Source of the DNA: Aeromicrobium chenweiae
GTDB lineage: Bacteria; Actinomycetota; Actinomycetes; Propionibacteriales; Nocardioidaceae
Length of the DNA stretch: 64,000 nt
Direction: 5' to 3'
Assembly: GCF_003065605.1 (NCBI RefSeq)
Contig: NZ_CP026952.1
Span: forward strand, 1,302,001-1,366,000
The position numbers were made by a program, and so were the translations under genes. Below, in pieces: positions 29,980 through 40,902 of this stretch. The notes below the pieces were generated by a model. It did not search any database and was not told where the DNA came from. It worked only from the letters and a program-made list of their open reading frames with translations. Positions within the stretch are counted from its first letter, which is position 1; each line of letters starts with the position of its first letter.

Positions 29980-30117
29980 CGCTGTGATTCCTTCGTCATG
30001 TCGTCTCCTCCGTGCCGGACCCGAACGTCCGCGCTATCAGTATGGGTCGCTCTGCAAGAGGTCGGCATCTGCACCGCGTGACGGGCAGGTGAGAGAATGG
30101 GAAAGCCACCACAGGCA

Positions 30118-30161
30118 CCCGGACGAGGTGCGCCGTACCCGGCCAGCGACAAGACGGCGCG
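30118..30161 (+). ncRNA. Guanidine-III (ykkC-III) riboswitch
   Basis: Matches the ykkC-III consensus: CCGGACGAGGTGCGCCGT, then ACCCGG, then AAGACGGCGC. The helix CCGG (30119-30122) pairs with CCGG (30139-30142). A 7-bp pseudoknot pairs GCGCCGT (30130-30136) with ACGGCGC (30154-30160). The pseudoknot end abuts GTGGAGG, the ribosome-binding region of sugE, so ligand binding could control translation. The family is known to bind guanidinium and to precede SMR exporters and related genes. Confidence 0.92.
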
Positions 30162-30175
30162 TGGAGGTTTTCGTC

Positions 30176-38579: not shown

Positions 38580-39641
38580 TCACCAGATGAGGGACGTCCA
38601 CCCCCACAGGACGACGGTGCAGAGCAGCACCAGCGGTGGTGTCGTGAGGACTCCAAGCAGGTGGAACTCCCGGGCCGAGGACACGGCCCTGCCCCCGGCC
38701 TGGCGCCACAGCAGGTTGGCGACCGAGCCGATGTAGGTCAGATTCGCGCCGACGTTGACGCCGATCAGCAGCGCGAGCACCGCGACCGGCCCGGCGACCT
38801 CCGCGGCCGGCAGCAGGAGCAGGGTGGCCGGCAGGTTGTTCACGACGTTGGCGGCGATCATCGCCAGCACCGCGATGAGCAGCAACGAGCCGAGGTCGGT
38901 GCCGGACGGCATCGCGTCGTCGAACCAGCTGCCCACGCTGGTGGAGCCGAGCCAGGACACGACGAACGCCCAGAGCAGGATCAGCGCGGCGAACGGCAGG
39001 TTGGCCGCCGCGAGCAGGTCGCGCCACGTCGTGCGGCGGCGCACCAGGGCGTACGTCCCGACGAGGATCGCGCCGGCCGTCGCGGGGATCCACGGGGCCG
39101 TGCCGCCGGCGAGGGCCAGCAGCACCACGACGACCACCGCGAGCGGGAACAGCGGGAGCTCGTCGTCGTCGCTGACGGCCGGTGACGGGACCCGCAGCTC
39201 CGCGGCGAACCAGACCCTCAGGATGACGTACTCGGCCGCCACGGCCACGAGCCAGACCGGGAGCATGGCCCAGGCGAAACCCAGGAACGACAGCCCGGTG
39301 GACCCGAAGACCAGCAGGTTCGTCAGGTTGGAGACGGGCAGGAGCGTCGAGCCGGAGTTGGCGAGACGGACCGATGCGTACGCGGACGAGCGTCTCGCGG
39401 ACGCGGCGAGCAGCACCGGCGTGAGCAGCACGACCGTCGCGTCGAGGCTCAACGTCGCCGTGACGACCGCTGCCACGCCCACGGCCCAGGCCAGCAGCCG
39501 CTGGCTGGAGCCGCGCGACCAGCGGGCGATGTGACCGCCGAGGACCTCGAACAGGCCTTCGTCGGCACACGCCCGGGCCAGCACCATCATCGCGACGAGG
39601 AACGCGACGATCGCCGTCAGGGAGCCGAGGTCGTGCGTCAC
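38580..39641 (-). CDS. ArsB/CitM-type ion transporter
   Basis: A 353-residue polytopic membrane protein with about 10 helices. It contains SLDATVVLLTPVLL and NVVNNLPATLLLLP, the paired N/P-containing helices of the ion transporter superfamily (ArsB, SLC13, CitM). It lacks the first one or two helices of typical 420-residue ArsB proteins, so the first membrane segment starts almost at the GTG. The ion is not predictable and no arsR is nearby. Confidence 0.82.
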   Translation of the reverse strand: MTHDLGSLTAIVAFLVAMMVLARACADEGLFEVLGGHIARWSRGSSQRLLAWAVGVAAVVTATLSLDATVVLLTPVLLAASARRSSAYASVRLANSGSTLLPVSNLTNLLVFGSTGLSFLGFAWAMLPVWLVAVAAEYVILRVWFAAELRVPSPAVSDDDELPLFPLAVVVVVLLALAGGTAPWIPATAGAILVGTYALVRRRTTWRDLLAAANLPFAALILLWAFVVSWLGSTSVGSWFDDAMPSGTDLGSLLLIAVLAMIAANVVNNLPATLLLLPAAEVAGPVAVLALLIGVNVGANLTYIGSVANLLWRQAGGRAVSSAREFHLLGVLTTPPLVLLCTVVLWGWTSLIW

Positions 39642-39661: not shown

Positions 39662-40234
39662 TCACAGGGCGCCCTCGAGGATCAGGAGCACGCCGAAGAT
39701 GACGAACGCCGCGGTGGCGCCGATCTTGATGACCCGGTCCGGCAGGTGCTTGCCGAGCACCGCGCCGAGGACGATTGCGAGGGCGTCGGCCGCGACCATG
39801 CCGACCGTGCTGCCGATCCACGTGCCGAGCCAGCCCTCCTGCGTCGCGAGGGTGATCGTGGCGAGCATCGTCTTGTCGCCGAGCTCGGCGAGGAAGAACG
39901 CGACGCCGACCGCGAGGATCGCCGCGCCCTTGCTGAGCCGCGCCTTCTCGGCCTCACCCTCGGTCAGCTCGTCTCCGCGCCACGTCCAGGCGGCGAACAG
40001 CAGGAAGGCGACGCCGGCGACGATCGAGATGATGTGCTGGCTGTCGGCGAAGCTGTCGCCGATCCACGCGCCGATCCCGACCGAGGCCAGGTGGACGATC
40101 GCGGTGGCCACGGTGATGCCGATGATGACGTCGCGGACCCGGTACCGGGTGGCGAACGTCATCGCCATCAGCTGGCTCTTGTCACCGAGCTCCGCCACGA
40201 AGATCACGGCGGTGCTCAGCAGGAAGGCATACAT
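39662..40234 (-). CDS. Gdt1/TMEM165 (UPF0016) family manganese exporter
   Basis: A 190-residue, six-helix membrane protein with the duplicated signature: FVAELGDKSQLMA near residue 12 and FFLAELGDKTMLA near residue 118. Members move manganese or calcium. The yybP-ykoY manganese riboswitch upstream strongly supports Mn2+ efflux here. ATG at 40234 is used; the upstream frame is the riboswitch leader and not coding. Confidence 0.92.
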   Translation of the reverse strand: MYAFLLSTAVIFVAELGDKSQLMAMTFATRYRVRDVIIGITVATAIVHLASVGIGAWIGDSFADSQHIISIVAGVAFLLFAAWTWRGDELTEGEAEKARLSKGAAILAVGVAFFLAELGDKTMLATITLATQEGWLGTWIGSTVGMVAADALAIVLGAVLGKHLPDRVIKIGATAAFVIFGVLLILEGAL

Positions 40235-40241
40235 GAAAGCG

Positions 40242-40270
40242 AAAAACCCCTCGTCTGCCTGGACGAAGAG
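40242..40270 (-). terminator. Intrinsic terminator inside the Gdt1 leader
   Basis: On the minus strand CTCTTCGTC pairs with GACGAGGGG (9 pairs, two of them G-U) around CAGGCA and is followed by TTTTT. It lies between the riboswitch aptamer and the start codon, 7 bases before the ATG. It is therefore positioned to stop transcription unless an alternative pairing forms. Confidence 0.75.
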
Positions 40271-40316
40271 CCTGGGTACGAGTCTTCGACCAGGAACGTC
40301 ATATGACACATCTGGT

Positions 40317-40417
40317 CGAAAGTCTCGTCCGCCACCGAGGTGGCCTGCTGCACCGGACACCCAGATGTTCGTGGGCGTCAGTATGTCGACACAGCCGTTG
40401 GGGACTACTCCCTTTCG
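40317..40417 (-). ncRNA. yybP-ykoY manganese riboswitch aptamer
   Basis: Read on the minus strand: CGAAAGGGAGTAGTCC at the 5' side (40417 inward) carries the conserved GGAGUAG loop. GTCGACATACTGACG follows, then a GCCACC-TCG-GGTGGC hairpin, then ACGAGACTTTCG. Helix P1 is CGAAAG (40412-40417) with CTTTCG (40317-40322). A downstream hairpin, TTCGACCAG (40312-40320) with CTGGTCGAA (40285-40293), shares bases with the P1 3' strand, so the two exclude each other. An intrinsic terminator follows at 40242-40270. The gene served is a Gdt1-type transporter. Confidence 0.85.
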
Positions 40418-40424
40418 TGCCCCA

Positions 40425-40430
40425 ACCCTA
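40425..40430 (-). promoter_or_regulatory. Probable -10 of the Gdt1/riboswitch transcript
   Basis: TAGGGT on the minus strand, about 7 bases before the first paired base of the aptamer, as expected for transcription starting at or near 40418. No clear -35 was recognised. Confidence 0.45.
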
Positions 40431-40461: not shown

Positions 40462-40467
40462 TAGGAT
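40462..40467 (+). promoter_or_regulatory. Probable -10 of rnpB
   Basis: TAGGAT ends 7 bases before the predicted 5' end of RNase P RNA at about 40475, correct spacing for a housekeeping sigma promoter. The -35 is not obvious. Confidence 0.5.
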
Positions 40468-40474
40468 CGTGGAC

Positions 40475-40902
40475 GCGAATGAGTCGGCCGGGCGGCCGCG
40501 GCACGGTGTCGCAAGACACGCGTGTCGAGGAAAGTCCGGACTCCGTAGAGCGACGGTGGTGGCTAACGGCCACCCACGGCGACGTGCGGGACAGTGCCAC
40601 AGAGATCAGACCGCCAGCGGCCTGCACCCTTGGGTGCAGGTGCGGGTAAGGGTGAAACGGTGAGGTAAGAGCTCACCAGCGCTCCGGGTGACCGGGGCGG
40701 CTAGGTAAACCCCACCGGGAGCAAGACCAAGAGGGCCCGCTTCGCGTGCGAAGCAGGTCTGCGCTGACGGGCTGCTCGTCCGATGTCAGCGGGTAGGTTG
40801 CACGAGGCGTCCAGCAATGGGCGTCCCAGATGGATGGCCGCCCGGGTCGACGAAGCAATTCGCCGGCCCGACAGGATCCGGCTTACAGGCCGGCTCATTC
40901 GC
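40475..40902 (+). ncRNA. rnpB: RNase P RNA, bacterial class A
   Basis: Catalytic RNA of RNase P, about 428 bases. Conserved blocks: GAGGAAAGTCCGGACTCC at 40527 onward, the GGGTAAGGGTGAAACGGTGAGGTAAGAGC region in two pieces, CGGGTAGGTTGCACGAGGCG near 40792, and ACAGGATCCGGCTTACAGGC at 40871. Helix P1 pairs GAATGAG (40477-40483) with CTCATTC (40894-40900), fixing both ends to within a few bases. Processes tRNA 5' ends. Confidence 0.97.

Follow-up and report, generated by a model that had tools for sequence, protein, structure and literature searches.

The window, by which we mean the whole analysed stretch of 64,000 nucleotides from the soil actinobacterium Aeromicrobium chenweiae (NZ_CP026952.1, positions 1,302,001 to 1,366,000), carries on its minus strand a gene for a Gdt1 (UPF0016) cation/proton antiporter, a likely manganese transporter. 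The minus-strand segment 40417-40232 opens with an aptamer of the manganese type; hairpin H (10 bp) comes next, then hairpin S (9 bp) with five U residues (U5) behind it, and finally the Gdt1 start. The individual features are given below; AT denotes the antiterminator or antisequestor pairing, SD the Shine-Dalgarno sequence and R1 a covariance model built from 26 aptamers of the genus, and the strand numbers are those of the relay proposed further on.

40425-40430, minus strand: -10 promoter hexamer TAGGGT, from sequence; the transcript start is expected at or just 5′ of P1
40317-40417, minus strand: manganese (yybP-ykoY) type aptamer with helices P1, P3 and P4 and without a P2 hairpin; 103.3 bits with R1, a score that holds by construction as the model was made from the window's genus
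40412-40417, minus strand: P1.1 5′ strand CGAAAG (strand 1), from sequence; pairs in 26 of 26 sequences and hardly varies
40384, minus strand: adenosine at the position equivalent to the Mn2+-sensing A, inside GACAUACU; invariant in 26 sequences
40317-40322, minus strand: P1.1 3′ strand CTTTCG, overlapping the H 5′ arm (strand 2); from sequence and the 26-row alignment
40312-40321, minus strand: H 5′ arm TTTCGACCAG (3′ part of strand 2); from sequence, fold and recurrence in leaders
40284-40293, minus strand: H 3′ arm CTGGTCGAAG (strand 3), H being the putative anti-antisequestor; from sequence, fold and recurrence
40283-40294, minus strand: AT 5′ strand CCTGGTCGAAGA (strand 3); from constrained folds, permutations and covariation
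40262-40270, minus strand: S 5′ arm CTCTTCGTC, the anti-SD (strand 4); from fold and terminator scan
40258-40269, minus strand: AT 3′ strand TCTTCGTCCAGG, that is, the S 5′ arm plus loop (strand 4); 11 bp with one U·U, covariation
40247-40255, minus strand: S 3′ arm GACGAGGGG (strand 5) with the SD GAGGGG at 40252-40247; from sequence and fold
40242-40246, minus strand: U-run TTTTT 3′ of S, terminator-like; from sequence and terminator scan
39662-40234, minus strand: Gdt1 (UPF0016) cation/proton antiporter, 190 amino acids; PF01169, E = 5e-40; ATG at 40234-40232

A TANNNT motif lies no more than 16 nt upstream of P1 in all 41 genus leaders, as opposed to 8 of 246 overlapping control windows further upstream, and the transcript should therefore start at P1; a scan of the window's leader region with the sigma-70 consensus returned no full promoter. 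The 193-nt leader folds at -83.8 kcal/mol (shuffles: -67.5, sd 4.8), a stability reached by 1 of 200 shuffles. Folded alone, the H piece is likewise more stable than its shuffles (z = -3.5), while neither the aptamer piece nor the S piece is unusual (z = -1.3 for each). One terminator-like site was found in 501 bases, where 0.3 (sd 0.5) are expected.

Several neighbours of the leader were also recorded. The open reading frame 3′ of Gdt1 (38580-39641, minus strand) resembles by eye an ion permease of the ArsB/NhaD type and may share a transcript with Gdt1. On the other strand lies an RNase P RNA gene (40480-40901, plus strand; RF00010, 276.9 bits), whose start is 50 bp away from the -10 element of the riboswitch; a TAGGAT is present at 40462-40467, and RNase P RNA lies on the strand opposite Gdt1 near the leader at 10 of 10 genus loci scanned. 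Further away lies a Guanidine-III riboswitch (30100-30163, plus strand; RF01763, 65.8 bits), and the small membrane protein downstream of it resembles, again by eye, an SMR/Gdx guanidinium exporter.

A manganese-class aptamer and its targets

Judged by its sequence, the leader is a divergent manganese (yybP-ykoY) riboswitch in front of the Gdt1 gene, which agrees with the class and target that the first-pass annotation had assigned. Across the 26 aligned sequences 92.2% of 747 cells are paired, and the covariation score of 0.243 exceeds that of shuffled alignments (0.114; reached in 0 of 500). The covarying helices are P3, P3.2 and P4; P1 and P1.2 hardly vary and are thus uninformative in this respect. 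R1 recovers both E. coli alx (32.2 bits, 8e-8) and E. coli mntP (19.5 bits, 0.0016) in a search of 111 kb.

The positions of the L1/L3 core (GGGAGUAG, CGAGAC and UCGACA) are unchanged across the 26 leaders. Adenosine 40384 corresponds to A48 of the Xanthomonas switch and A41 of the Lactococcus switch, and the window loop ACAUACU is identical to the X. oryzae loop as quoted in PMC6754395 (ACA48U49ACU52). No P2 hairpin was seen between L1 and P3 in the 26-row alignment, nor was the four-way junction of the crystal structures found; at this place the R1 alignment gives alx a 1-nt insert and mntP a 14-nt insert. To go by these alignments, P2 does not seem to be universal among Mn2+ riboswitches.

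The Rfam model of the class, RF00080, fails to match the window even with the threshold at E = 10, and finds nothing in the whole genome at E ≤ 0.001. It also gives no match to the E. coli alx switch at E = 10, and E. coli mntP reaches 41.6 bits where the cut-off is 45. Sub-cut-off matches were obtained at 5 of 10 sister loci scanned (E < 0.03), the best being L030 with 31.6 bits (E = 3.7e-5) and L011 with 29.6 bits (E = 1.4e-4). At the Rfam 15 gathering cut-off, which is a curators' threshold rather than a property of the riboswitch class and does not discriminate here as the positive controls also fail, RF00080 is found at 0 of 58 R1-hit loci and at neither the E. coli alx nor the mntP locus. 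Absence of an aptamer score had been put forward in advance as an outcome that would count against the riboswitch; this absence is literally true for RF00080 but is no refutation, because E. coli alx and mntP fail the same test. We also considered a special blind spot of RF00080 for Actinomycetes (0 of 394 over the cut-off and 6 of 394 at E ≤ 0.001 in the class sample), a claim that we dropped because scoring in that sample was limited to six candidates per genome and because RF00080 misses the E. coli controls as well. What can be said is that these switches, like the two E. coli ones that served as controls, escape the present Rfam model at its cut-off.

R1 matches occur in 46 of 49 genus genomes, in 138 of 293 genomes of the order sample and in 158 of 394 of the class sample; the order and class samples include genus members, and only a part of the candidates in each genome was scored, which makes these tallies lower bounds. 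The riboswitch is present at all 30 genus Gdt1 loci first fetched, and a search with an exact sequence pattern matched 52 stretches in total, among them some in records named as Nocardioides, Janibacter, Phycicoccus and Knoellia. By tblastn, with the window Gdt1 and five proteins from R1-hit loci as queries, all 139 R1-hit loci that were fetched have a target gene: Gdt1 in 107, TerC in 29, MntP in 2 and a Na/Ca exchanger in 1. Ten of the proteins were also checked by Pfam, nine from these loci and that of the window.

We infer that Mn2+ is the ligand of the window aptamer. The opposing reading, in which the aptamer responds to a different ligand or the gene is repressed by Mn2+, can point to the missing RF00080 match in the window. 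It has to contend with the invariance of the Mn-sensing adenosine and the L1/L3 motifs, with the homology to E. coli alx and mntP, and with the TerC, MntP and Gdt1 targets, and we regard it as highly improbable. The association with such genes is already in print: according to a review, 333 strains that have a UPF0016 member were screened, and in 328 of them its gene is under this riboswitch (PMC7380456), and Mn2+ transport is described as common to the characterised UPF0016/Gdt1 members (PMC8236900). Published yybP-ykoY hits in Corynebacterium glutamicum include one at terC (PMC3890552), and a 2013 survey lists yybP-ykoY among the motifs found in >75% of the taxonomic groups that it covers (PMC3766115). 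It is this UPF0016 link, together with the C. glutamicum hits and the wide occurrence of yybP-ykoY, that leads us to assign the sensor to a known class.

Hairpins H and S and the AT pairing

The downstream elements were compared in 147 distinct Gdt1 leaders (41 from the genus, 39 from the family, 11 from the order and 56 from the class), taken from loci that were picked mostly among the better-scoring R1 hits, which means that the group counts are not those of a random sample. Six leaders were too short for the SD folds, leaving 141, and three more had too little sequence between the arms for the AT energies, leaving 138.

Hairpin H was described beforehand as a 9-bp helix sharing the 3′ strand of P1 (CGAAAG/CTTTCG), and this description is exact: P1 pairs 40417-40412 with 40322-40317, H pairs TTCGACCAG (40320-40312) with CTGGTCGAA (40293-40285) on the minus strand, and TTTCG is common to the P1 3′ strand and the 5′ arm of the hairpin. 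An extra U-G pair extends H to 10 bp. A helix of at least 8 bp directly 3′ of the aptamer, with the P1 3′ strand as its 5′ arm, is found in 137 of 147 Gdt1 leaders, a count made with no chance control, and H covaries in the 26-row genus alignment (0.163 against 0.111; 0 of 500). The leader fold also contains an outer extension of H, in which the aptamer's GACGAG pairs with a downstream CTCGT; the model works without it. In 6 of the 147 leaders 12 nt or fewer separate H from the start codon, too short a distance for S. Five short Gdt1 leaders of class-level relatives (L207, L211, L213, L216 and L236) have a GAAAGG-like ribosome site at the H 3′ arm and no room for S.

The terminator with a T run proposed just before the Gdt1 start is present as hairpin S with TTTTT at 40246-40242, but its reading as a terminator only is incomplete, as the S 3′ arm contains the SD. 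The window thus displays the features of a dual platform, a terminator-like stem (40270-40247) with the ribosome-binding site in its 3′ side and U5. In the genus the SD is almost never unpaired (mean 0.011 over 41 leaders, against 0.233 when the upstream sequence is shuffled); the respective values are 0.168 and 0.370 in the family (39), 0.211 and 0.367 in the order (11), and 0.295 and 0.390 in the class (50). Counting as hidden any SD that is unpaired at <0.3, this amounts to 40/41, 31/39, 9/11 and 30/50 leaders, respectively. The SD is therefore far less surely hidden outside the genus, where S is less uniform. T-runs of at least 4, counted in the spacer between SD and start, follow S in 19/41 genus leaders and in only 3/97 others (family 2/39, order 0/11, class 1/47). 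The covariation of S in the 26-row genus alignment shows no excess.

Because the SD lies in the S 3′ arm and S is common in relatives that have no U-run, S looks foremost like a sequestor of the ribosome site, which here may also terminate; hiding the SD would be the older role, and the terminator look mainly a feature of this genus. One can go further and suppose that the switch acts on translation only, with H, AT and S as we propose, S never terminating and the U-run an incidental spacer. The mostly paired SD and the rarity of T-runs outside the genus fit this supposition, as does the statement that translation attenuation is commonest outside Firmicutes (PMC2258182). Against it stand the T-runs in nearly half of the genus leaders and the window itself, which has U5 and an SD-to-ATG spacing of 12 nt (genus median: 8), poor for a ribosome site but fit for a terminator. 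We consider purely translational control possible though the less likely case; in the window, the 12-nt spacing and U5 suggest that termination may weigh more.

When the leader was folded under two constraints, P1 formed and the SD unpaired, a further hairpin, AT, came to light, in which the H 3′ arm pairs with the S 5′ arm and loop. Its mean energy over 138 leaders is -21.3 kcal/mol, as compared to -17.9 (sd 0.26) with permuted partners, where none of 2000 permutations does as well; shuffling the H arm gives group means between -11.8 and -15.1 kcal/mol. AT is better than its own shuffled mean by at least 3 kcal/mol in 122 of the 138 leaders (genus 41/41, family 34/39, order 7/11, class 40/47). 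When partners were permuted within groups, with identical arm pairs merged to 39, 38, 11 and 46, the own pairing was reached in 0/5000 permutations for the genus and for the class, in 84/5000 for the family and in 73/5000 for the order, so the signal is weaker in the family and order sets. Of the 279 AT cells in the 26 aligned genus rows 96.8% are paired, both partners differ in four of the pairs (18 cells), and the covariation of 0.239 exceeds that of shuffled alignments (0.142; 0 of 500), with all six slid registers lower. The pairings thus exist and recur in relatives, and H and AT covary within the genus. A shorter relay, formed by the last five H bases and five more, was tried and rejected: it gave -7.3 kcal/mol in the genus against -5.6 with the S arms of other groups, and -6.5 against -7.1 in the family, a mixed outcome without signal, and the longer AT was adopted instead.

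AT could still be a by-product if H and S were independent hairpins, serving stability or a protein, that happen to share repeat-like sequence. The H 5′ arm does resemble the S 5′ arm plus loop (CTTTCGACCAG and CTCTTCGTCCAGG), and it follows that the H 3′ arm can pair with either. The bases that precede GG in the H 3′ arm often vary together with their partners in the H 5′ arm and in the S loop: the triple is GG/CC/GG in 15 of 41 genus leaders and AG/CT/AG in 13, and the 13 others, which have neither of these two common triples, also fit independence. Conversely, the S loop bases left unpaired within S mostly go along with the H 3′ arm (the 15 and the 13 of 41), AT outdoes permuted partners, and imposing P1 shifts 111 of 138 leaders to AT and none in the reverse direction. 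A gene tree of 37 of the 41 genus rows, from which four with different bases were excluded, shows 3 changes of the base in the H 3′ arm, which were followed by the loop base in 2.9/3 and by the H 5′ base in 2.4/3 on average; three independent changes are too few for significance, and a second AT pair showed no co-directional change. Taken as a whole, we think it improbable that H and S are independent, and retain AT as a functional candidate.

The first-pass annotation had proposed a different antiterminator, in which the aptamer's GGACGA would pair, in Mn-free RNA, with TCGTCC of the terminator 5′ arm, making this a pure transcription terminator switch. The 6-nt complement is real (40330-40325 with 40266-40261) and occurs in 26/26 aligned genus leaders, and the duplex with the S 5′ arm is strong in the genus (mean -10.5 kcal/mol, compared to -7.3 for the shorter relay). 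However, it never varies in these 26 leaders and hence offers no covariation for or against the pairing, and its invariance can be explained by the aptamer core on one side and the SD/anti-SD constraint on the other. Outside the genus it is mostly absent, as the partner TCG[TC]CC is found in 41/41 genus leaders but in 13/39 of the family, 0/11 of the order and 6/47 of the class. Such an antiterminator would moreover turn an exporter OFF with Mn, against the ON logic of the class. We therefore give this pairing very little credence and regard AT as the better supported antiterminator.

A putative five-strand relay

The first-pass annotation's general idea, layered alternative folds in front of one start codon with P1 competing with a hairpin, was sound, and all of these folds lie where it had placed them. 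We consider it probable that the leader is a Mn2+-activated (ON) riboswitch whose expression platform is a relay of five strands: strand 1, P1 5′ (CGAAAG); strand 2, P1 3′ and H 5′ (CTTTCGACCAG); strand 3, H 3′ and AT 5′ (CCTGGTCGAAGA); strand 4, AT 3′ and S 5′ (TCTTCGTCCAGG); and strand 5, S 3′ with the SD (GACGAGGGG). In the proposed model, strands 2 and 3 would form H and strands 4 and 5 would form S without Mn, so that the ribosome site would be hidden, the terminator-like hairpin and U5 would be in place, and the switch would be OFF. With Mn the aptamer would keep strands 1 and 2 paired as P1, which would deprive H of five of its ten pairs; the freed strand 3 would capture strand 4 once this is transcribed, forming AT, and strand 5 would stay open (ON). 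As all of AT can form ahead of the S 3′ arm, the choice would fall during RNA synthesis. The yybP-ykoY class is described as switching ON with Mn (PMC11087558; PMC9603457), and the L. lactis switch is reported to decide at P1.1 while the RNA is being transcribed (PMC11087558).

To examine this relay, bound Mn2+ was represented by a P1 helix that we imposed by hand, and all results given here are those of sequence and energy calculation. In window nascent RNA ending at 40258-40249, AT forms with a probability of 0.97-1.00 when P1 is imposed, whereas unconstrained RNA has H at 0.85 and AT at 0.00. Across the 138 leaders, imposing P1 makes 111 gain more than 3 AT pairs and makes none lose more than 3; 27 do not gain 3. 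Opening the SD costs less when P1 is formed than when H is; the difference amounts to -7.4 kcal/mol for the window, with means of -2.7 kcal/mol in the genus, -1.0 in the family, -0.9 in the order and -1.6 in the class. This coupling energy, calculated for 140 leaders (L119 was lost), points the opposite way by >1 kcal/mol in 19 of them (4/41, 7/39, 2/11 and 6/49, respectively), contrary to the model.

At equilibrium the two outcomes are not cleanly separated. With P1 imposed, the full-length window leader is balanced between AT (0.54) and S (0.45), and RNA ending at 40244, when the U-run is being made, has S at 0.96. P1 does not exclude S at equilibrium, and read-through would consequently require kinetic trapping, with AT resisting displacement. 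The cost of imposing P1 climbs from 4.4 kcal/mol at completion of H to 14.8 kcal/mol at full length, from which it follows that Mn must act early. The ON sign, the kinetic trapping and the shares of transcriptional and translational control are what we infer.

The TerC-linked copy and comparison with known systems

A second copy of the aptamer is present in the same genome in front of a TerC gene (L091, G000:C1:1700702-1700799; R1 66.7 bits). In this leader the P1 3′ strand CCTCCG is directly followed by CCGGAGG and then the start codon, and a P1 3′ CCTCCG facing an SD CCGGAG(G) before the start is seen in 17 of the 19 TerC copies counted in the genus. There are 20 such loci; L095, L142, L146 and L159 were left unoriented in the analysis, which brings the number down to 19. 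The TerC copy would accordingly be a three-strand translational ON switch. It belongs to the same aptamer class as the window's copy, but has three strands only where the Gdt1 leader has five. Read as strand pairs, the three-strand wiring appears in TerC and a few short Gdt1 leaders and the five-strand wiring in the window; by a parity argument, adding two strands (H 3′ and AT 3′) on going from three to five would keep the ON sign. On the whole we lean slightly towards the broader view that actinomycete Gdt1 leaders have a conserved five-strand (P1/H/AT/S) ON relay, the wiring of which evolves by strand pairs with the sign kept, and that the output hairpin of the genus has often gained a U-run and may serve as both sequestor and terminator. 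If true, it would be new that one aptamer class drives three- and five-strand platforms of the same expected sign in one genome, which lets one ask what the extra folding layers buy (a sharper response, lower leak or kinetic memory) and by what route an RNA switch can evolve while its sign stays the same.

One of the closest known systems is the transcriptional switch of the L. lactis type (RF00080), which shares the aptamer core, the Mn-sensing adenosine, the P1.1 switch helix and the Mn = ON response (PMC11087558, PMC6754395). There the 3′ segment of P1.1 goes directly into the terminator hairpin, whereas in the window the H 3′ arm and the AT 3′ arm lie in between; the window's terminator-like arm also carries the SD, and its aptamer is without the P2 hairpin. 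The comparison with the E. coli mntP and alx Mn2+ riboswitches, both of which R1 recovers, covers the aptamer; for mntP, translation initiation is reported to be turned on with Mn (PMC9603457). No five-strand platform of a yybP-ykoY switch was found among the literature matches listed.

With regard to the platform, the window resembles the dual transcription/translation platforms described in PMC2258182, which likewise have a terminator-like hairpin with the ribosome-binding site in its 3′ side and a U-run. According to that source, ON switches bury pieces of the terminator directly and OFF switches have one extra element; the window has two extra, which would return it to ON. Finally, the pe20 Mbox of M. 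tuberculosis (PMC12810186), also from an actinobacterium, is similar in having a mutually exclusive SD/anti-SD/anti-anti-SD chain, and is described with another aptamer and ligand, a shorter chain and Rho-dependent termination. The sensor in the window hence belongs to a known class, and the long platform behind it looks like a new wiring that is common to many relatives.
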